Source: Candidatus Woesearchaeota archaeon CG10_big_fil_rev_8_21_14_0_10_45_16
GTDB lineage: Archaea > Nanobdellota > Nanobdellia > Woesearchaeales > GW2011-AR9
DNA length: 64,000 nucleotides
Direction: 5' to 3'
Assembly: GCA_002762785.1 (NCBI GenBank)
Contig: PCXY01000005.1
Location: forward strand, 124,001 to 188,000
Shown: positions 26,461 through 64,000 of the stretch, piece after piece
Position numbering within the stretch: the first letter of the stretch is position 1
Layout: each line of letters begins with the position of its first letter
Position numbers and translations under genes: made by a program
The notes under the pieces: generated by a model
Seen by the model: the letters and a program-made list of their open reading frames with translations, nothing else
Told to the model about the DNA's origin: nothing
Databases searched by the model: none

Positions 26461-29340
26461 ATGAAATTCAGCATAGCAGGGAGAGAGATAGGTGACGACT
26501 GCCCTTGCTTTACCATCGCCGAGATCGGCATCAATTTCAACGGCAGTTTAGATACTGCTAAAAGATTGATCGATGCGGCAGTAGCTGCCGGCTGTGATGC
26601 GGCCAAGTTCCAAGCTTTCAGCGCCGACAACATCTATCCCAAGACGGCTGGTACGTTAGATTGGGAAGATAACGAAAAAAAATATTCCTATTCCATCCAC
26701 GAAAACGTCAAAAAATTTGAACTGCCCAAATCCTGGGTGCCGGAACTGAAGCGATATTGTGATGAAAAAAGGATCATCTTCTTCTCCAGCATCTGTGATG
26801 AAGAACAGGCTGATTATTATGATTCCTTAGGCGTCCCTTTGTTCAAAACCACATCGTACGCTGTCACCCATCTGCCGTTGATCGAATACATCGCCAAGAA
26901 AGGCAAGCCGATCATCATCTCCACTGGAGGATCCGATCTTCAGGAAGTGAAAGAAGCATATGAAGCAGCCAGAAAATACAACGGCAAGATCATCCTGCTG
27001 CACTGTGTGATTAAGTACGGCGCTGCTTTAGATACCATCAATATGAACGTTCTCGATACTCTGAAAACAGAATTTCCAGATGCAGTCATCGGCTATTCAG
27101 ACCATACTTACGAAGCCGTTGACACGCCGGTTGCCGCAGTGTACAAAGGAGCGAAAGTGGTGGAGAAACATATCACTCTAGACAGGAAAATGCCGGGACC
27201 TGATCATTTCTTCGCTTTGGAGCCAGCCATGTTAAAAGAGATGGTTACAGCAATAAAAGACACCGAGCGGAAGATGAATGAGGGCAAACCGATATCGATT
27301 AACCCGATCATCCTTGGTTCTGGAGAAAAGAAGATGCAGTCCAATGAAGAGTATCTTCGCAAGTTTGCCTTCCGCACCATCATAACTTCCAAAGCCATCA
27401 GCAAAGGAGAGACGATAAATCTCGACAACGTCAAGGTTCTGCGTCCTGGAAAGTTAGAGAAAGGATTAGAACCAAAAGAACTGCCCAAGATCACTGACGG
27501 TTCCTATAAAACAAAAGATAATCTTGCTGAAGGGACCGTCATCACCTGGAAAAATATTGAAGGAGGAAAAATGAACATCAACAATAAAGAACTGCAACAA
27601 GATAAAGCTTACATCATAGCTGAAATAGCGTCTGCCCATTGCGGCGACATCAACAAACTAAAACAGATCATCAAAAGCTGTGTTGACTCAGGCGTAGACG
27701 CCGTCAAGTTCCAGATGTTTGATGTCGACTACTTTGTATCAGTCTTCCATCCAAATTATCCTAATAACAAGAAAAACCAGTTCAGCAAGGAGACCTGGGA
27801 AGAGATCTTCAGTTACACCAAACAGTTCAACGTCGACGTCTGGGCAGATGTCTTCGACGAAGGCAGCGCCGATTTAGCCGAACAGCATGTGCATGGCTTC
27901 AAGCTGCATTCGACAGATGTCACCAACCCATTCATGATCAGGCACGTAGCTAAGAAAGGCAAGCCGATCATCCTGGCTGCTGGCGGAGCCACCCTCCAGG
28001 AACTGAAAAATGCGGTAAAGATGATTGAAGAAGCCGGCAACTGCCAGATCATCCTTAGCCACGGTTTCCAGGCTTATCCTACCAGTATCGAGAACGTTAA
28101 TCTTAAACGTCTCAATGTTTTGAGAGAAGAGTTTCCGCAATATACCATAGGCTACCATGACCATACTGATGCAGAGATGAACATGGCTAAAGTCATGCCT
28201 CTGGCTGCGTTCGCCTATGGAGCAAGAGTCATCGAGAAACACGTCACTGATGACCGTTCGCTCAAAGGCTTTGATTATGAATCATCTCTGAATCCAGATG
28301 AACTGAAAGAGATGGTCCAGATGTTCCAGACCTTCGAATCAAGCCTCGGCAGCGACGGATTTGAGATGTCGGAAGCTGAAATGAAATACAAAGATTACAC
28401 CAAAAGGTATGTCGTCGCCAAGAGACCGATCATGAAAAGTGAGACTATCACCAAAGAAGATCTTGCTTTCAAGAGATCGACACACGGTATCACCCCCCGA
28501 GAATATGAAAAAGTTGTCGGCAGGAAAGCAGCTAGGGACCTTAAGCAGGATGAATCCATCACCATGGCTGACATCGAGAATAAAGTGGCCATCTGCCTGG
28601 CTGTCCGGCTTAAGTCGACCAGACTGCCGAAGAAAGCTCTCCTAGAGATTGATGGACAGACGTTCATCGAACACCAGATCGATCGGATCAGGCGCTGCAA
28701 GAACGGCGAACTTATCCTCTGCACCTCAGACCTTGAAGAAGATTCTCTTTTGATAGAGATTGCCAAGCGAAAGGGCGTCAAGTGGTTTGCCGGCAGCGCA
28801 GATGATGTCATGGACAGGTTCATGAAAGCTGCTGAAAAAGAGAACGCTAATATAATCGTCAGGACCACCGGCGATAATCCTTTACAGGACCCAGAGCTGA
28901 TCGATCAGCAGATCGAATTCCATATCAAAGAAGGCGCTGATTACACCGGTATCGAAGATCTGCCGATCGGCTTCGAGGCAGAAGTCGTCAACATGTGGAC
29001 CTTGAAAGATGCTCACAGCAGGGTCAAAGACATCAAAGAGACAGAATTCATGACCTGGTTCATCAAAGATCCAAAACATTTTAAGGTGATGATCCTGCCG
29101 GTCGATGATAATCTTAAAAGAAAGTATCGGGTGACTTTAGACACGCCGGAAGACCAGAAGGTCATCAGCTCTGTGTTCGATGCTTTATACCCGCAAAATA
29201 AAACTTTCGGAGTGAAAGAAGTGGTGAATTTCTTAGACAACAATATCGAGATCGCTTCGATCAACGTTGACTATGAACAGATAAAACGGCCGCCAAAGCT
29301 TAAGGAGATGAACAATGATACAGATATCTCCAGTTATTGA
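26461..29340 (+). CDS. Trifunctional fusion: NeuB/SpsE-like nonulosonate synthase (+SAF) - second NeuB/SpsE-like synthase (+SAF) - SpsF/NeuA-like cytidylyltransferase
   Basis: Module 1 FTIAEIGINFNGSLDTAKRLIDAAVAAGCDAAKFQ, GYSDHT, EKHITLDRKMPGPDHFF, then SAF; module 2 from ~27571 YIIAEIASAHCGD, HGFQAYPTSIENVNL, GYHDHT, EKHVTDDRSLKGFDYESSLNPDE, then SAF; module 3 from ~28585 AICLAVRLKSTRLPKKALLEIDGQTFIEHQIDRI. Confidence 0.9.
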   Translation: MKFSIAGREIGDDCPCFTIAEIGINFNGSLDTAKRLIDAAVAAGCDAAKFQAFSADNIYPKTAGTLDWEDNEKKYSYSIHENVKKFELPKSWVPELKRYCDEKRIIFFSSICDEEQADYYDSLGVPLFKTTSYAVTHLPLIEYIAKKGKPIIISTGGSDLQEVKEAYEAARKYNGKIILLHCVIKYGAALDTINMNVLDTLKTEFPDAVIGYSDHTYEAVDTPVAAVYKGAKVVEKHITLDRKMPGPDHFFALEPAMLKEMVTAIKDTERKMNEGKPISINPIILGSGEKKMQSNEEYLRKFAFRTIITSKAISKGETINLDNVKVLRPGKLEKGLEPKELPKITDGSYKTKDNLAEGTVITWKNIEGGKMNINNKELQQDKAYIIAEIASAHCGDINKLKQIIKSCVDSGVDAVKFQMFDVDYFVSVFHPNYPNNKKNQFSKETWEEIFSYTKQFNVDVWADVFDEGSADLAEQHVHGFKLHSTDVTNPFMIRHVAKKGKPIILAAGGATLQELKNAVKMIEEAGNCQIILSHGFQAYPTSIENVNLKRLNVLREEFPQYTIGYHDHTDAEMNMAKVMPLAAFAYGARVIEKHVTDDRSLKGFDYESSLNPDELKEMVQMFQTFESSLGSDGFEMSEAEMKYKDYTKRYVVAKRPIMKSETITKEDLAFKRSTHGITPREYEKVVGRKAARDLKQDESITMADIENKVAICLAVRLKSTRLPKKALLEIDGQTFIEHQIDRIRRCKNGELILCTSDLEEDSLLIEIAKRKGVKWFAGSADDVMDRFMKAAEKENANIIVRTTGDNPLQDPELIDQQIEFHIKEGADYTGIEDLPIGFEAEVVNMWTLKDAHSRVKDIKETEFMTWFIKDPKHFKVMILPVDDNLKRKYRVTLDTPEDQKVISSVFDALYPQNKTFGVKEVVNFLDNNIEIASINVDYEQIKRPPKLKEMNNDTDISSY

Positions 29341-34933: not shown

Positions 34934-35614
34934 ATGGAACAAGCAAAAACATTAAAGCAAGAGATCTGGGAAAAGAGCAAGAAACACAAAGAATGGAGCA
35001 TGGTCTTGACAGATTACATATCACGGCCAGTAGCTTACCTGATAGCTCGTTTTACTAACCTCACACCTAATCAGATCAGCATCCTCTCGTTCATCCTGGG
35101 GCTAGCAGGCTGTTACTTCCTGATCAGAGGTGGATATCAAAATACTCTGATTGGCGCGTCATTAGCCATGGCTTACAACGTATTAGACATGACCGACGGC
35201 ATCATCGCCAGAGTCAAAGGAAAAGCGTCACGGGTCGGCCACTGGCTTGACGGCATACTAGGTTTTGTCCTGACGCCATTGCTGGTGATAAGCCTGGCTA
35301 TCGGACTGCGGAACTATCTGGCTCTTACTCTAGGTCTTTTCGCCGCCATCAGTTATCCGCTGCAATACAACCTCGTCTATTTTTTCAACGCCGAAGTCGT
35401 CAACAAGAACGAAAAGTTAGGGATACCCGGCAAAGGCAAGCTAGAATGGACCCGTTACGTCTACGGCATCAGCCTTTTTTATATCGCCCTGTTCGTAGCT
35501 GCGATCGCCGATAAGACTTTCTGGGTACTGGGGTTCTGGGCTGTCTTCGGCAACCTTTACTGGATGGCTATTGTCATGGTCCAGTTCCTGACCATCAGGA
35601 AACAGCAACAGTGA
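34934..35614 (+). CDS. CDP-alcohol phosphatidyltransferase family protein
   Basis: DMTDGIIARVKGKASRVGHWLDGILG matches D-x2-DG-x2-AR-x8-G-x3-D with the final D replaced by G; multi-TM. Confidence 0.8.
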   Translation: MEQAKTLKQEIWEKSKKHKEWSMVLTDYISRPVAYLIARFTNLTPNQISILSFILGLAGCYFLIRGGYQNTLIGASLAMAYNVLDMTDGIIARVKGKASRVGHWLDGILGFVLTPLLVISLAIGLRNYLALTLGLFAAISYPLQYNLVYFFNAEVVNKNEKLGIPGKGKLEWTRYVYGISLFYIALFVAAIADKTFWVLGFWAVFGNLYWMAIVMVQFLTIRKQQQ

Positions 35615-56251: not shown

Positions 56252-57055
56252 ATGAAATTCAAAGACATCATCAAAACTTTACGGGACTATCAGTTCAGGA
56301 GCATCATTCATAATGCTTTCTCCCTTATGATCAGCGACGCCCACGTCGTATCGTATCGAAAGAGCGGACGCACCTGGCTGCGGCTGCTGATAGCCAAAGT
56401 TCTTTCTGAGAGTTACGGCTTCAAGAAGATAAAACTTGATACTCAGTACATGACATTGTTCAGCAAAGCGCCGAACGTCGTCTTTTCCCATGCCGGCTGC
56501 ACCATCAACGACAACAAGGTCAACTTCAAGAAACTTCTTAGGAAGAAAAAGATTGTTTTTCTATCGAGAGATCCCCGGGATGATGTCGTCTCCCTCTACA
56601 ACGATTATACCAAGAGAGATAATGTCTGCGAGATGGATCCCTCTTCGTTCATCCGGGATGAGAAGTATGGGGTGGGGATGATAGTGCGATATCTCAACAG
56701 CTGGAAAGCAGAGATGGACAAAAGACAAGGAGATTTTCTGCTGGTCCGTTATGAAGACATGAAGAAAGATGCTGGTCATGAATTAAGACGCGTACTTGAT
56801 TTTTTGAAGATCAAATATACTCCTGAAGTGATTGAGAAAGCGGTGGAATACGGCTCGTTCAGCAACATGCGGAAGATGGAAGCGACGGATACGTTTGATG
56901 ACAAGCGGATGCAGGCGAGAGATAAGGACGATATCAGCAGTTATAAGACGCGTAAGGGGAAAGTAGGCAGCCATAAAGAGGAGCTGTCTGCAGAAGATAT
57001 ATTGTATCTTGACGAGCAGGTAAAAGCGCATCTTGATCCTGAGTTCGGGTATTGA
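56252..57055 (+). CDS. PAPS-dependent sulfotransferase
   Basis: 5'-PSB-like VVSYRKSGRTWLRLLI, 3'-PB-like FLSRDPRDDVVSLY, C-terminal RKGKVGSHKEELS. Confidence 0.88.
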   Translation: MKFKDIIKTLRDYQFRSIIHNAFSLMISDAHVVSYRKSGRTWLRLLIAKVLSESYGFKKIKLDTQYMTLFSKAPNVVFSHAGCTINDNKVNFKKLLRKKKIVFLSRDPRDDVVSLYNDYTKRDNVCEMDPSSFIRDEKYGVGMIVRYLNSWKAEMDKRQGDFLLVRYEDMKKDAGHELRRVLDFLKIKYTPEVIEKAVEYGSFSNMRKMEATDTFDDKRMQARDKDDISSYKTRKGKVGSHKEELSAEDILYLDEQVKAHLDPEFGY

Positions 57056-57181: not shown

Positions 57182-59446
57182 GTGTTATATAAAGTGGTTA
57201 AAAAGATCAAGATTATCGCGACTCTAGGACCTGCAACCAATAAAGAGGAAGATATCGTCAGGGTCAAAGATAAAGGCGTCGATTTCATCCGCATCAACAT
57301 GTCGCATTCTTCACTAGAAGATATGGAGCATTTCCTGAAGATGGCTAAAAAGGTAAAGATACCATTTGTCATCGACACGGAAGGGTCACAGGTCAGGACT
57401 GGTGAATTGTCCACACCGACGGTAGACGTTTCTGAAAACAGCGAGATAAAGATCTTTGATAAGCCGATCGTCGGTGATAATACTAAGCTGTCATTAAAAC
57501 CGGAAGGTGTAGTGCCGCAGCTGGAGAAAGGCGACCTTATCCAGATCGATTTTGATACAGCTGTCCTGAGAGTCAGTGATACATCGACCATCAGTCGGGG
57601 TTACATCACGGCGAAAGTGGTCACAGCCGGTATCCTTGGAAAGAATAAAGCGGTTGTCCTGGATCGGGCCTGCGGCAGACCATTGCACCTCCCAATTCTT
57701 TCAAAGAAAGATTATGATTCCATCAAGCTGGGTATGGAGTATGGCGTCGGCCATATCGCTCTTTCCTTTGCGCGATCAGGTAAATGTCTTGATGAAGTAC
57801 GGAGAGCTACCCAGAACACCATGCAGGTCATCTCTAAGATCGAATGTGTCGATGCTCTCCGCAACCTGGATGTGATAATCGCCAAATCTGATTATCTCCT
57901 GATAGATCGGGGAGATCTCAGCAAAGAGATACCAGTCGAGAAGATCCCCTTCACTCAGAAGATCATCCTTAACAAGGCGGCTAAAGCAAAAGTGCCGGTG
58001 TTCGTCGCGACCAATCTTTTGGAAACGATGATCAATTCACGGAAGCCTACAAGGGCAGAAGTGCATGATATCCTTAACACCATCCTGGACGGGGCCGGCG
58101 GTCTGGTATTGGCTGCAGAAACGGCCATCGGCAAGCATCCGATGGAATGTATCAACATGCTCAACAAACTGATCAACCATGCTCAGCTAGCCATGGACGG
58201 CAGTGATGTTTCACAAAAAGAGGAAGAATTTGTCAGTAAGCTGTTGGCAAAGAATTATCTTCTTGATTCAGAAGTGTCGTCATCATTGATAGAGCCGCAC
58301 GGCGGCCGATTGGTCAACCGGGTGGCTGTTAAGATTCCAGAGAAGTCCTATCTTGATTCCCTGCCAAAGATAAATTTGGATGAGAACCGGCAGCGTGACG
58401 TGGAACAGATCGCCGTGGGAACCTACAGCCCCATCGAAGGCTTCATGAACAAAGACAATTTTAATTCCGTCCTTGACCGGATGAGACTTTCTAATGGATT
58501 GGTCTGGTCGCTGCCGATCTTCCTGGACGTCAGCGAGGAGAAAGCAGCAGAACTGGCTGTCGGCAGTGATGTGGCTTTAGTCGATGAGCGTGGCGAAGCG
58601 ATGGCTATCCTGAATCTTGAAGAGAAATATCATTTTGACAAGACGGAGATGGCTGAGAAATTGTATGCTACGCTTAGCGACGAGCATCCCGGCGTGAGAT
58701 GGATCTTTAACCTTAATCCGGTGATGCTGGGCGGAAAGATCACCTTACTGAGGAGAAGAGACAACGAGGATAAAGAGTACGAGATGACACCAAAGCAGAC
58801 CAGAAGCTTGTTTGAGGAGAGGGGGTGGTCTAAAGTGGTGGCGTTCCATACCCGGAACGTACCGCATAGAGGTCATGAGTTCATCCAGATGAAAGCCATG
58901 GAACGTGAAAAGTGCGACGGCTTGTTCGTCCATCCTGTTGTCGGCAAGAAGAAGCAGGGTGATTTCAATGCCAAATATATCACTAAAGCCTATGAGATCA
59001 TGACTGAGAAGTTTTACCCGCAGAACAGGGTCATCTTCGGCACTTTTTCAACCTACAGCCGTTATGCTGGACCGAGGGAAGCTTTATTTACGGCCTTATG
59101 CCGTCAGAATTTTGGCTGTAGCCATTTTGTCGTCGGCAGAGACCACACCGGGGTAAAAGATTTTTATCACCCAAAAGCATCCCATAACATCTTCGACAGG
59201 TTCCCGGACATCGGCATCAAAGCTGTCTGCTTCGATAAGGTGTTCTATTCTCCGACACTGCAGGACCATGTCCATCTGGCCGATAATCCTGAGCATCCTG
59301 AAGACGATTCCCAGCATATCAGCGGCACCCAGGCCCGAAAGATGTTCGAGGCGGGAGAACTGCCTCCTGCCTGGTTCATGCGGCCGGAGATCTCGCAGAT
59401 GATCATCGATGCGGTGAAGAGAGGCGAAGAAGTGTTTGTGAGGTGA
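57182..59446 (+). CDS. Fusion: pyruvate kinase catalytic domains (A/B) + ATP sulfurylase (Sat)
   Basis: PK: IIATLGPAT, FIRINMSH, DTEGSQVRTG, VISKIE, DRGDLSKEIP, VATNLLETMI, ETAIGKHP; Sat from ~58285: PHGGRLVNRV, HTRNVPHRGHEFIQ, VVGRDHTGVKDFY, ISGTQARKMFEAGELPPAWFMRPEI; GTG start at 57182 or 57194. Confidence 0.92.
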   Translation: MLYKVVKKIKIIATLGPATNKEEDIVRVKDKGVDFIRINMSHSSLEDMEHFLKMAKKVKIPFVIDTEGSQVRTGELSTPTVDVSENSEIKIFDKPIVGDNTKLSLKPEGVVPQLEKGDLIQIDFDTAVLRVSDTSTISRGYITAKVVTAGILGKNKAVVLDRACGRPLHLPILSKKDYDSIKLGMEYGVGHIALSFARSGKCLDEVRRATQNTMQVISKIECVDALRNLDVIIAKSDYLLIDRGDLSKEIPVEKIPFTQKIILNKAAKAKVPVFVATNLLETMINSRKPTRAEVHDILNTILDGAGGLVLAAETAIGKHPMECINMLNKLINHAQLAMDGSDVSQKEEEFVSKLLAKNYLLDSEVSSSLIEPHGGRLVNRVAVKIPEKSYLDSLPKINLDENRQRDVEQIAVGTYSPIEGFMNKDNFNSVLDRMRLSNGLVWSLPIFLDVSEEKAAELAVGSDVALVDERGEAMAILNLEEKYHFDKTEMAEKLYATLSDEHPGVRWIFNLNPVMLGGKITLLRRRDNEDKEYEMTPKQTRSLFEERGWSKVVAFHTRNVPHRGHEFIQMKAMEREKCDGLFVHPVVGKKKQGDFNAKYITKAYEIMTEKFYPQNRVIFGTFSTYSRYAGPREALFTALCRQNFGCSHFVVGRDHTGVKDFYHPKASHNIFDRFPDIGIKAVCFDKVFYSPTLQDHVHLADNPEHPEDDSQHISGTQARKMFEAGELPPAWFMRPEISQMIIDAVKRGEEVFVR

Positions 59447-59454
59447 ATTAGAAC

Positions 59455-61149
59455 CTAATCTTTGCTTTTACTTTTCGATTTCTTTGATTTGGACATCTTT
59501 ATCTGATCTCCCTGTATCTCTCGTGGTTTCCCTAAACTGAGTATTGTCTTGACGACTCCTTTAAAATCTTGTCCTTCTACCAGGTAGGTGATACAAGGGT
59601 CTTTTTCTTTGTAGAGTTGGATCATCTTTTTGCTGGGATTAAAACAGATCCTGGTTTCTGTCGCTTTAAGCATCGGGATATCCGAATAACCATCACCGAC
59701 GCCGATGCTTCCTTCCTCCGGGATGGAATAACGTTCCATGATGTATTTAACGATATAATATTTAACGTCATCATGGAGAACATTTTTTTCGGCAACTTCG
59801 CCGGTGATGATCCCTTTCTTTTCATCAAGCACATTACAATAGATCTCGTCGATGCCAAGTTCTTTACATATCGGCGTGACTATCTGGGAGAAACCTGAAG
59901 AGATAGCAACAAGGTAGTACCCGTTATCCTTAAGTTCTTTGATGCCGGCCTTGACGTTATCGATCAACCGAAGATTTGGTATGAACGCTTTGATGTCGCT
60001 TACTTTAAGACCTTTCAGCAGCTTTGCGCTTTCGATGATAGCCTCTTGCATACTCAACGTTCCCTCAATCTGTCTGATGATAAATTCCAACACTTCTTTC
60101 TGCTTGCCCATCAGGTTCGCAAGTTCTACCGTAGTGTGATTCTGTGTGAAGATACGATTGACATCAAAAGCGATAAGTTTCTTTGGTTTGTCCTCGCTGA
60201 GAGATAGTAGCAGATGATCTTGTTCTTTAGGAAAGTCGCCGTCCTCTTTGAGAGAGACTGTAGTTGTCATAAGGGATAAAAAGTGCTGTTTGGTCTGTTT
60301 GATAGTTTCGTAGGAATTTATGAAGATACCGCCGCTGGTAAGACCGTTTGAATTTTTTAAGAACATGAATAGAGCATCGCCTTCTTCATCATTTTCTATA
60401 AGGGCGAAATTAAAGGGTGTTGGGGTCTTGCGAAGATCGATATTCTTATTCTGGATAGTTTTCTTTTTGGTGATAGCCAAGATCTCTTGTAACTCTTCTT
60501 TGATAAGCTCGCGGTTCTTATATTTTTTTTGAAGCCTGTGCTGAAGAGCCTCTGTCCTATAAGGAGAGAGACAGAACAAAGAGAAAGAAGAATCATGTAT
60601 CTTGTCGGTAAGTGTCTCAATATACGCAGCTTCCTGGGCACTGTTACATAAAGCGAAAGAGTAAGCGTACTGAGGGAAGTCGCAGCCGATGTAAAAAGCG
60701 CTGGCATTTTTCAGATAGAACACCAACTGTTTATATAGTTCAGCTTCTGTAAGGTAGGTTACAGAGATAGAATTTGGCTTGATGTATTTTTCAAAGAAAG
60801 CCTGAGTGTCGGAAGCAAAATTTGTTATCTCATCCATCTCTTGGGCTAATTCTTTCTTCTTGGCATATATCACTTCCTGGATGCCCCTTAAGTTCAGAAG
60901 ATATTGAGAATTCTCAGTCTTCATGATTACCCCTTTCTCCTGAAGGATCCGTAGCTGGGTAAAAAGGTTCGATTTTTGGATAAACCCCTTGGTCTCTTTA
61001 AAATACTCGCGTTCTATCACGACCGGATTGGTCGGGAGCTTATTCTCTTGAAGCTGAAAGATTATCCCGATTATACTGGTCTGCTGGCTGGTCAACTGCA
61101 GCCATCTCGCTATCTTGGGGATCATTTTGTTTCTACTTTGGAGTGGCAT
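59455..61149 (-). CDS. Fusion: winged-HTH/TrmB-like regulator + SerB-like HAD domain
   Basis: N-terminal wHTH-like LTSQQTSIIGIIF...SNLFTQLRILQEKGVI; C-terminal IAFDVNRIFT, VAISSGFSQIV, GVGDGYSDIPML; Lys/Ser-rich tail. Confidence 0.68.
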   Translation of the reverse strand: MPLQSRNKMIPKIARWLQLTSQQTSIIGIIFQLQENKLPTNPVVIEREYFKETKGFIQKSNLFTQLRILQEKGVIMKTENSQYLLNLRGIQEVIYAKKKELAQEMDEITNFASDTQAFFEKYIKPNSISVTYLTEAELYKQLVFYLKNASAFYIGCDFPQYAYSFALCNSAQEAAYIETLTDKIHDSSFSLFCLSPYRTEALQHRLQKKYKNRELIKEELQEILAITKKKTIQNKNIDLRKTPTPFNFALIENDEEGDALFMFLKNSNGLTSGGIFINSYETIKQTKQHFLSLMTTTVSLKEDGDFPKEQDHLLLSLSEDKPKKLIAFDVNRIFTQNHTTVELANLMGKQKEVLEFIIRQIEGTLSMQEAIIESAKLLKGLKVSDIKAFIPNLRLIDNVKAGIKELKDNGYYLVAISSGFSQIVTPICKELGIDEIYCNVLDEKKGIITGEVAEKNVLHDDVKYYIVKYIMERYSIPEEGSIGVGDGYSDIPMLKATETRICFNPSKKMIQLYKEKDPCITYLVEGQDFKGVVKTILSLGKPREIQGDQIKMSKSKKSKSKSKD

Positions 61150-61267: not shown

Positions 61268-62119
61268 ATGCAATTCCATTCCAGATGGTGGATGACAACA
61301 ACAACAAAACTTGTTTCATCCGACCTTAACGGAACTTTGGTGCATCAACACACTATGAGCGACATGATCAGGATATATCTTGGTCAGGAGAATTTTGAGA
61401 AAGCTAATGCTGTCTTCAAGAAGCAGACTTCGGGAGAAGCCAGCATGGAAGCAGCGTTCGGCAACGCCGGCCCTTTGACTAGAGGATTAACTTTACGGCA
61501 GGCCCTGGAATACACGCGGGACCATATGAGATTCGTGGACGGATTTCAGCCATTTGTCGACGAACTGGCAGATAGGCAGACCCCTTTCATCATCAATTCT
61601 ACAGGCTACTCAGTCACCATCCACGCCATCAGGGCTCAGCTGGGCCGGGATAAGATCGCTGGACAGATCGGCAACCGCCTTGAATTCGGCCAGGATGCTG
61701 ATCCACAGGCAGTATTGAGGGAAGATGAGCTGGAGAATCTGGTCTTTGATTATTTTGCATCCGGAAAAACCACCGATAGAGCTTATGATCGTATCAAAGC
61801 GACAGGTGTCGTCCATCTAGGAATAGTAGATGAAGCGGCCAAAGCCTCGCTGTTATTGGATCGTGTGGCGGCAGAATTTCCGGGCATTAATCCGACGGAA
61901 ATTGTCCACATCGGCGATACTTACGGAGATTTCGGCGGCATCTCGGGAATAGCTAAAGCTGGAGGCACAGGGATCGCTTTCAATTACAATGGTATTCTAG
62001 AAACCAAGCTAAAAGAAGAGATCGCTCAAGATCTTTCATTAGGCGCGCTGATCCATTTCGTCGATCCAAAGGGACCGGACTGCGACATGCGAAGGGTGCT
62101 GCCGATAGTATACAAATAG
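61268..62119 (+). CDS. HAD-superfamily hydrolase
   Basis: VSSDLNGTLVH (DxNGT variant), FIINSTGYS, HIGDTYGDFGGI; alternative start 61292. Confidence 0.75.
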   Translation: MQFHSRWWMTTTTKLVSSDLNGTLVHQHTMSDMIRIYLGQENFEKANAVFKKQTSGEASMEAAFGNAGPLTRGLTLRQALEYTRDHMRFVDGFQPFVDELADRQTPFIINSTGYSVTIHAIRAQLGRDKIAGQIGNRLEFGQDADPQAVLREDELENLVFDYFASGKTTDRAYDRIKATGVVHLGIVDEAAKASLLLDRVAAEFPGINPTEIVHIGDTYGDFGGISGIAKAGGTGIAFNYNGILETKLKEEIAQDLSLGALIHFVDPKGPDCDMRRVLPIVYK

Positions 62120-62240: not shown

Positions 62241-63563
62241 ATGGGAAAAGTCGTCTGGTTTACGGGGTTGAGCGGTTCTGGAAAGACCACCATCGCCCTC
62301 AGATTAAAGAAAGAACTAGAGAAGCAGGACAAGACCGTCCACATCCTTGACGGCGACGTGGTGAGGAACGAGCTCCATAAAGACCTCGGCTTCTCCCGGG
62401 AAGACATCAGAGAGAACAACCGACTGATAGCCTTGCTGGCAAAGAAGTATCAAGATTCTTCAGATTTTGTTTTGGTCCCTATCATCTCACCATACCGGGA
62501 AGACCGAGCCATGGCCAGATCGATTATCGGCCCCAGTTTCATGGAGCTCTATGTCAACTGTTCTTTAGACGGCTGCATCAAGAGAGATGTCAAAGGCTTG
62601 TATCAGAAGGCTCTAGCCGGCGAGATCGACAATTTAATCGGCGTGGCTGACTCGAATCCGTATGAAGCGCCGGAAAATCCTGAACTGGAGATCAATACGG
62701 AAAAGAATGATCTTGACACTAGCATCGACCTGATCAGCAGCAGATTGCTGAAAGATAAGCTGCCTTTTGAAACTTCTTTCCCCGAGATAAAGATGGCGAT
62801 AGAAGGCATCCTGGAAGCGGGAAAAGCAGTCATGGAGATCTATAGTCGTGATTACGATATCTCCAGAGATAAAGATGGAGAACCGACCACAGAAGCCGAT
62901 AAGAAAAGCAATCAGATCCTGATGAACGCACTGGGAAAGACCGGCCACATGATCCTCTCAGAAGAAGATGTCAATGATGAAAAAAGATTAGGAGAAGAAT
63001 ATGTCTGGATCGTCGATCCCATCGATGGCACTTCTGATTTTGTCAACAAGACCGGCGAGTTCACGATCATGGTAGGGCTGGTAAAAGATCACGTGCCGGT
63101 GCTCGGTCTGGTCCTGTGGCCTCCCCAGAAGATCCTATTCATCGGTGAGAAAGGCAAAGGAGCGTATAAGCTCGAGAAAGGAGAATGGCAGAAGATACGG
63201 TGCAGCAGTAAGACCGATCTTAAAGAATGCCGCCTGATGAGGAGCCGACACCATCTCTCAGAGGAGGAACAACGGGTCGCTTCAGAACTCGGCATCACCA
63301 TGGCCGCGGCCAGAGGCAGCAGCCTGAAAGCCATGGATATCGCTCAAGGTTCAGGAGACCTCTATTTCACATTAACTTCAAAGATCAAGCAGTGGGATAC
63401 CTGCGCTTCATACTGCATCCTTACCGAAGCTGGAGGAAAGATGACAGATATCTTTGGAAATGCTCTTCAATATAATACTACTAAAGTAAACCACGAAAAT
63501 GGGATACTGGCGACAAACGGGATTGTCCATGAAAACTTTATAAAAAACTGCCAGAGACATTGA
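62241..63563 (+). CDS. Fusion: APS kinase (CysC) + CysQ-like 3'(2'),5'-bisphosphate nucleotidase
   Basis: CysC: WFTGLSGSGKTTIA, LDGDVVRNELHKDLGFSREDIRENNRL, ISPYREDR, RDVKGLYQKALAGEIDNLIGV; CysQ from ~62790: EPTTEADKKSNQIL, LSEED, VDPIDGTSDFVN, QWDTCASYCILTEAGG. Confidence 0.93.
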   Translation: MGKVVWFTGLSGSGKTTIALRLKKELEKQDKTVHILDGDVVRNELHKDLGFSREDIRENNRLIALLAKKYQDSSDFVLVPIISPYREDRAMARSIIGPSFMELYVNCSLDGCIKRDVKGLYQKALAGEIDNLIGVADSNPYEAPENPELEINTEKNDLDTSIDLISSRLLKDKLPFETSFPEIKMAIEGILEAGKAVMEIYSRDYDISRDKDGEPTTEADKKSNQILMNALGKTGHMILSEEDVNDEKRLGEEYVWIVDPIDGTSDFVNKTGEFTIMVGLVKDHVPVLGLVLWPPQKILFIGEKGKGAYKLEKGEWQKIRCSSKTDLKECRLMRSRHHLSEEEQRVASELGITMAAARGSSLKAMDIAQGSGDLYFTLTSKIKQWDTCASYCILTEAGGKMTDIFGNALQYNTTKVNHENGILATNGIVHENFIKNCQRH

Positions 63564-63810: not shown

Positions 63811-64000
63811 TTATCGGTATCCAAAATCGGGATGCAGTTCTGCCTCAAGTCTACCATTAAGATAAGAGATATCAGCAGGTGACAGATAATCGTTATAACC
63901 TCCAACTTTGGCTTTCCTTACTTTATATGATTCAACGTCATTTTTGTTTTTTGCTCGAAGACGGTAATCTATAAATGAATCCGATCTTTCCATCTTTCGC
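63811..64000 (-). CDS. C-terminal part of a second sulfotransferase, continuing beyond the window end
   Basis: RKMERSDSFIDYRLRAKNKNDVESYKVRKAKVGGYNDYLSPADISYLNGRLEAELHPDFGYR aligns with RKMEATDTFDDKRMQARDKDDISSYKTRKGKVGSHKEELSAEDILYLDEQVKAHLDPEFGY of 56252-57055; frame stays open to base 64000. Confidence 0.75.
   Translation of the reverse strand, partial: RKMERSDSFIDYRLRAKNKNDVESYKVRKAKVGGYNDYLSPADISYLNGRLEAELHPDFGYR

Follow-up and report, generated by a model that had tools for sequence, protein, structure and literature searches.

A candidate sulfation module with APS kinase-phosphatase and pyruvate kinase-ATP sulfurylase fusion proteins in a small-genome archaeon

Why would an archaeon with a small genome place in one protein both an APS kinase, the enzyme that makes PAPS, the universal donor of sulfate, and a phosphatase of the type that removes PAP, and which pathway would such a protein serve? 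The question is raised by an open reading frame in a 64,000-nt stretch of DNA (the window) from Candidatus Woesearchaeota archaeon CG10_big_fil_rev_8_21_14_0_10_45_16 (contig PCXY01000005.1, positions 124,001 to 188,000, forward strand). An earlier note on this DNA had described an N-terminal CysC with complete motifs followed by a C-terminal inositol-monophosphatase/CysQ domain. Both domains were borne out. The frame runs without an internal stop, and Pfam recognised APS_kinase (PF01583) at residues 2-152 (E 1.4e-52; 178 bits, cut-off 21) and Inositol_P (PF00459) at residues 184-438 (E 1.4e-49; 169 bits, cut-off 27). The CysC half passed the apsK equivalog-domain model TIGR00455 (189.5 bits, cut-off 138.7) and keeps the P-loop and APS-binding residues in the motifs GLSGSGKTT, DGD, ISPYREDR, GLYQKA and PYEAP. 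It aligned to the archaeal APS kinases 2yvu and 8a8h, with PYEAPENPE among the aligned motifs, and is 56-67% identical to CysC from other pyruvate kinase-Sat clusters. The CysQ half contains LSEED (SEED), VDPIDGTSDF and QWDTCASYCILTEAGG, in agreement with the motifs reported earlier. An AlphaFold2 model of the protein showed two folded domains, both well modelled (mean pLDDT 85.3, pTM 0.67), and a Foldseek search with this model gave Bacteroides CysQ 3b8b as the top solved match. These results confirmed a complete APS kinase plus a complete CysQ-type phosphatase, hereafter CysC-CysQ. Its coordinates and those of its neighbours are collected in the table.

Table. Position and domain content of the putative sulfation genes and their neighbours in the window.
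Feature	Position	Strand	Description
Sulfotransferase 1	56252..57055	+	267 aa; PF00685 E 3.3e-25; PAPS-binding motifs SYRKSGRTWLR, SRDPRD
PK-Sat fusion	57182..59446	+	754 aa; PK barrel 7-324, PUA_2 370-524, ATP-sulfurylase 532-743 (PF00224, PF14306, PF01747)
HAD-family protein, N-terminal extension	59455..61149	-	PF12710, PF00702; opposite strand inside cluster
HAD-family phosphatase-like gene	61268..62119	+	PF12710; between PK-Sat and CysC-CysQ genes
CysC-CysQ fusion	62241..63563	+	440 aa; APS kinase joined end to end to CysQ-type phosphatase
APS kinase half of fusion	62241..62753	+	residues 1 to about 171
CysQ half of fusion	62754..63560	+	residues about 172-440
Sulfotransferase 2	63811..64000	-	289 aa; start past window end; convergent with CysC-CysQ

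The joint between the halves can be placed by comparison with separate homologues. The start of stand-alone CysQ from Thaumarchaeota, MSIKLPF, aligns with LLKDKLPF of the fusion, and the CysC part stops near the usual end of stand-alone CysC; the fusion therefore has no linker, and its two parts meet end to end. The same single frame could have been produced by an assembly or sequencing error merging two overlapping genes, since the fusion is seen in one genome only and since cysC and cysQ of close relatives overlap by 4 nt (ATGA in G121), so that a one-base error could join them. Codon usage speaks against such an error. Over residues 151-200 the log-odds were +8.9 to +11.7 for frame 0 and -12 to -32 for the other frames, frame 0 was favoured on both sides of the joint and through it, and intact genes fill both of the apparent gaps that were examined in the window. 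Moreover, the halves align with their homologues up to the joint while CysQ has lost its start codon and CysC the last part of its tail, a state not readily explained by one base inserted or lost. The open reading frame is probably not a frameshift artefact, and we consider an error of this kind improbable.

The fusion is rare. The search for further CysC-CysQ architectures that the earlier note had suggested returned the fused copy from this genome only, with no other instance among 371 genomes sampled from the phylum and 352 from the order. One apparent second case, G470, was rejected because two in-frame stops separate its genes. No relative was found on viral contigs, and no phage record contained both halves; 104 plasmid records cover both, and the one inspected in detail carries nodQ and cysQ as unfused neighbours. 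An exact-peptide-pattern scan of 85,000 species genomes matched only CysQ of Thaumarchaeota, such exact patterns being liable to miss distant CysC-CysQ fusions. As separate genes, cysC and cysQ adjoin in convergent orientation in 11 Thaumarchaeota, and nodQ and cysQ on a Sinorhizobium meliloti plasmid overlap by four bases and remain separate. In S. meliloti, NodPQ serve the sulfation of Nod factor. The fusion would have originated from neighbouring cysC and cysQ genes of this kind, joined end to end. The open-access literature that we searched contained no report of an APS kinase-PAP phosphatase or a pyruvate kinase-ATP sulfurylase protein.

Two other variants of CysC were observed in the genomes compared. 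The first is a second CysC type of ~300 aa, with an N-terminal ~130 aa to which no domain was assigned (L055:7633-8544, L058:8378-9295, L059:8100-9014, L064:7359-8237 and L134:3720-4634); of the five genomes, four have it next to an ordinary cysC or cysQ. The second involves SemiSWEET transporters: a SemiSWEET gene lies directly upstream of cysC in G121 (L046:10426-10698), and in G029 (L048:2-775) CysC carries a SemiSWEET-like segment as an in-frame fusion. Together they suggest that sulfate activation is linked with a transport step.

The interpretation of CysC-CysQ depends on the substrate of its second half. Among NCBIfam models, the CysQ half fitted TIGR01331 (CysQ) best, with 178.8 bits, a lead of 58 bits over HisN and of 82 over archaeal FBPase/IMPase; because it missed the equivalog cut-off of 228.8, we name the domain CysQ-type and not a certified CysQ. 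The stand-alone CysQ proteins encoded beside cysC in G121 (170.2) and Nitrosotenuis (190.8) also missed the cut-off. A maximum-likelihood tree built from 37 IMPase-family proteins placed the CysQ half in a 14-member clade with support of 100/99, whose other 13 members are all encoded next to cysC (G121, G022 and 11 Thaumarchaeota), and the CysQ half aligned with CysQ of Thaumarchaeota at 46-50% identity. Its motif 2, MILSEEDV, has the L-S-E-E form given as CysQ-specific, instead of G-E-E, in a published comparison (PMC5516325), and it has the SRxH and GSSxK positions in common with the solved CysQ 3b8b. The proline usual in actinobacterial-type CysQ four residues after the motif-6 aspartate (PMC5516325) is replaced by serine (WDTCAS); 3b8b also lacks it (WDTAAG). 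Elsewhere in the genome is a second IMPase-family gene, which fits the FBPase/IMPase model best and would be available for housekeeping. The motifs of the IMPase superfamily overlap, and this, with the missed equivalog cut-off, could be taken to mean that the CysQ half acts generally on inositol phosphates or fructose bisphosphate and that its fusion to CysC is incidental. The lead of the CysQ model over HisN and FBPase/IMPase, the cysC-linked clade, the LSEE, SRxH and GSSxK positions and the separate IMPase-family gene make that very improbable, and the plain phosphatase that the earlier note had named as fatal to its reading is not indicated by our data. From the clade, the shared positions and the second gene, PAP hydrolysis therefore emerges as the likely activity of the CysQ half.

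CysQ orthologues are described as acting on PAPS as well as on PAP (PMC5516325), which makes PAPS hydrolysis a real alternative. The CysQ half might act mainly on PAPS, trimming the 3'-phosphate of excess donor to give APS and setting the PAPS level as a built-in brake. E. coli CysQ was first proposed as a control of PAPS (PMC6731281), and in the fusion the phosphatase would be the first to meet the CysC product. A brake of this kind would, however, run a futile cycle that wastes ATP, and in E. coli the addition of cysQ on top of cysDNC did not lower the amount of sulfated product but strongly increased it (PMC6731281). We regard PAPS as the main substrate as quite unlikely and retain PAP hydrolysis as the preferred reading.

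The source of APS for CysC-CysQ is suggested by a second fusion 3 kb upstream, in which the barrel of a pyruvate kinase (PK) is joined to a complete ATP sulfurylase (Sat). This PK-Sat protein is the sole pyruvate kinase of the genome. Its PK domain scored 213.9 bits against PF00224 (cut-off 30) and missed TIGR01064, the model of full-length pyruvate kinase (266.7 bits, cut-off 306.4); the C-terminal PK domain PF02887 (PK_C) is lacking, with ATP sulfurylase in its place. The catalytic residues RxNxSH, DT, SKIE, RGDL and AT are kept in the window protein and mostly kept in the other fused forms. The Sat domain passed TIGR00339 (377.2 bits, cut-off 323), and its closest solved relative is 8a8d, the Sat of Methanothermococcus thermolithotrophicus.

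Unlike CysC-CysQ, PK-Sat recurs. The architecture is present in 11 genomes (that of the window, G121, G015, G030, G044, G364, G381, G168, G371, G452 and G453), three of which (G044, G452 and G453) have an APS kinase added C-terminally, giving proteins of 913-933 aa. Pyruvate kinase and sat are separate genes with an overlap of a few bases in G208, G111, G231 and G062, and cysC follows in three of the four; the pyruvate kinase adjoining sat in G208 is complete by Pfam and NCBIfam. The loci concerned, besides 57182-59446 of the window, are L046, L047, L049, L050, L051, L115-L117, L130 and L131. Among the 15 Sat-bearing genomes of the 371-genome phylum sample, which are related and so do not count as independent observations, PK and Sat are fused in 8 and overlap in the same direction in 4; the other 3 comprise G153, whose pyruvate kinase gene is partial and convergent, and two genomes with no PK nearby. 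The fused and overlapping states point to a functional link between the two enzymes. By these gene arrangements, the coupling conserved across families is that of pyruvate kinase with ATP sulfurylase, and CysC-CysQ is a single-genome variant.

Downstream of PK, sat and cysC, G231 carries phosphonate genes (L120:14789-18001) that include a PEP mutase-cytidylyltransferase fusion by Pfam and, by eye, then a phosphonopyruvate decarboxylase-like and a dehydrogenase-like gene.

As the genome has no other pyruvate kinase, PK-Sat may simply serve glycolysis, the fusion to Sat having no function beyond gene order, and we counted this against a sulfation module. A merely glycolytic role does not sit well with the fused or overlapping arrangement in 12 of the 15 genomes of the phylum sample that have Sat, with the second, ordinary PK that G231 has apart from the one adjoining sat, or with the further addition of CysC in three genomes. 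We view such a role as possible but doubtful and proceed with a functional link of PK to Sat.

PK-fused Sats also differ from free Sats at a conserved site. The motif QXRNXXHXXH, which coordinates sulfate and phosphate (PMC3779200), is not matched by the window protein, where it reads HTRNVPHRGH with His as first residue. Of the 11 PK-fused Sats, 10 have HTRN and one has LSHN, whereas free Sats have Q(T/C)RN (7 of 7). Since the change from Gln to His falls on the first position of a sulfate-holding motif, the kinetics of the PK-fused enzymes may be unusual; altered specificity appears less likely than altered kinetics.

The two fusion genes are flanked by two sulfotransferase genes. Sulfotransferase 2, which extends past the window, matched PF00685 with E 3.5e-27 at G000:C3:187853-188590 and has the PAPS-binding motifs; it is 54% and 65% identical to sulfotransferases that adjoin PK-Sat in G121 and G452, respectively. 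The shorter HAD-family gene of the table has a 63% identical copy between PK-Sat and cysC in G015. Both HAD proteins have Asp-x-Asn and not Asp-x-Asp as motif I; they could possibly be the pyrophosphatase or a nucleotide phosphatase of the pathway. The genes sampled from the surrounding 60 kb encode flippases, glycosyltransferases, NeuB, sugar epimerases and a CDP-alcohol phosphatidyltransferase, and given these polysaccharide- and lipid-type genes sulfate is probably transferred to a glycan or lipid of the cell surface.

Several other features of this island and its relatives were observed. First, a 959-aa protein at 26461-29340 of the window is another multi-enzyme fusion, of NeuB, SAF and CMP-sugar cytidylyltransferase. 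Second, a large protein combining cytidylyltransferase, PPDK_N and PEP-utiliser domains lies near sulfation genes in three genomes (L065:800-3691, typed by Pfam, L130:10885-15432 and L052:664-3504). Third, CDP-alcohol phosphatidyltransferase genes are often found near that protein or near sulfation genes (34934-35614 of the window, L046:8029-8763, L116:8388-9083 and L117:1207-1965).

PAPS might instead feed sulfate assimilation, with CysQ protecting that pathway; assimilation in E. coli needs CysQ, and another contig carries a CysD gene. We searched the genome, which is 98% complete, for the reductive pathway. No CysH was found, PF01507 detecting genome-wide only CysD and a TtuA/NcsA-type tRNA thiolase, and sulfite reductase (PF01077) was absent from the 98%-complete genome. 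Methanothermococcus reduces PAPS by an AprA-type PAPS reductase (PMC10322725); neither such an enzyme nor another AprA-like flavoprotein was found genome-wide, PF00890 yielding only Rossmann fragments of ~35 residues. With CysH, AprA-like protein and sulfite reductase all missing, the complete APS/PAPS reductase pathway that would have contradicted the earlier note was not found in the 98%-complete genome, and a role in assimilation is scarcely credible. The claim that the fusion is dedicated to sulfotransfer rather than assimilation appears supported, by the two flanking PF00685 sulfotransferases together with the absent reductive pathway. The CysD gene (within L114:9578-14062) has no adjoining CysN and lies beside genes for a sulfatase-like protein and a phosphodiesterase-like (alkaline phosphatase superfamily) protein.

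Archaeal affiliation is in keeping with a near-hit to ribosomal protein L7Ae (eL8), with the TtuA/NcsA-type protein and with the small genomes found all through the phylum sample; a bacterial 16S model detected nothing in the assembly. Taken together, we think it likely that this archaeon, which has a small genome and is probably of DPANN type, has a dedicated sulfation module for surface molecules, run by a PEP-fuelled PAPS cycle. The Sat domain of PK-Sat would convert sulfate and ATP to APS and PPi, and the CysC half would phosphorylate APS with ATP to give PAPS and ADP. The PK domain would regenerate ATP from this ADP and PEP, releasing pyruvate and also relieving the inhibition by ADP that is known for APS kinases. 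The two neighbouring sulfotransferases would then sulfate an acceptor that, judging from the polysaccharide genes nearby, is probably a glycan or a lipid head group. The PAP set free in this step would be hydrolysed by the CysQ half to AMP and Pi, clearing the inhibitor of the sulfotransferases. The CysC-CysQ fusion would fix the ratio of donor supply to by-product removal at one to one. The earlier note had proposed that the fusion couples the two; this can hold for co-expression and co-localisation. As PAP is released by the sulfotransferase, CysC-CysQ would give matched amounts and co-location and not channelling between its own sites.

The proposal builds on what is read directly from sequence, namely domain make-up, intact catalytic motifs, neighbourhood, the missing reductive pathway and the recurrence of PK with Sat; from these we infer the activities, substrate and acceptor, the recharging of ATP by PK, channelling and any kinetic advantage of the fusions. 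We counted in favour of the module and its cycle the domains and motifs, the two sulfotransferases, the missing reductive enzymes, the cysC-linked CysQ clade, the adjoining cysC and cysQ genes of relatives, the like overlap of nodQ and cysQ in S. meliloti, the PK/Sat recurrence, the PK residues kept in the window protein and the polysaccharide-type neighbourhood. We also counted in favour the boost that cysQ gave to sulfation in E. coli and the use of pyruvate kinase in in vitro PAPS cascades, to which it is added for ATP recharging and to avoid a dead end of APS kinase with ADP (PMC9885120). Counted against the module were the missed TIGR01331 cut-off, the HTRN motif, the presence of CysC-CysQ in a single assembly and the fact that the cluster is not one operon, an opposite-strand HAD gene lying between PK-Sat and CysC-CysQ. 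To the broader proposal, that a DPANN-type lineage possesses a PEP-driven PAPS engine in which PK is wired to Sat (in three genomes also to APS kinase) and recharges ADP on the spot, with one genome adding PAP removal, we give an even chance.

If the module is real, PAPS-dependent sulfation of the cell surface would be a true trait of these tiny archaea, costly or important enough to tie up the only pyruvate kinase of the cell. If the engine is PEP-driven, two proteins of the window would carry four activities feeding two sulfotransferases, a natural counterpart of the cascade that chemists built in vitro. The fusions are also ready-made candidates for use in enzymatic sulfation, a process limited in practice by regeneration of the donor and removal of PAP.

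The activities of CysC-CysQ and PK-Sat all belong to known families, and their combinations are new with respect to the literature searched. Fused PAPS-synthesis enzymes are known from eukaryotic PAPSS1/2 and from bacterial and fungal Sat-APS kinase proteins (e.g. 2gks), which join two synthetic steps and contain neither a PAP phosphatase nor a pyruvate kinase. In eukaryotes, ATP sulfurylase is known fused with APS kinase, pyrophosphatase or APS reductase (PMC2275785). The algal and oomycete fusions with pyrophosphatase and APS reductase resemble PK-Sat in attaching to ATP sulfurylase a helper that pulls the reaction; those helpers remove PPi or use APS, whereas here PK would restore ATP. For archaea, a 2024 survey of fusions lists ATP sulfurylase only with a histidine phosphatase, in one Sulfolobus (PMC11237513).

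Among unfused systems, M. thermolithotrophicus (PMC10322725) likewise has an archaeal Sat and APS kinase with an adjoining PAP phosphatase gene, and its APS kinase, 8a8h, is the second-closest solved relative of the CysC half; its PAP phosphatase, however, belongs to the unrelated DHH family, and its PAPS serves reduction and not sulfotransfer. Thaumarchaeota (Nitrosotenuis, Nitrosopumilales) have the CysQ closest in sequence to the CysQ half, also encoded next to cysC, but as separate convergent genes and with no PK-Sat within the regions compared. The S. meliloti operon of NodP/CysD, NodQ (CysN-CysC) and CysQ, with NodH-type sulfotransfer, shares the order of an APS kinase gene followed by an overlapping cysQ; there the proteins are separate, the APS kinase is fused to CysN, and APS comes from a CysD/CysN pair instead of a PK-fused Sat. 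The PEP-supplied in vitro PAPS cascades (PMC9885120) are alike in combining Sat, APS kinase, PK and sulfotransferase activities, and differ in that chemists assembled them from separate enzymes.
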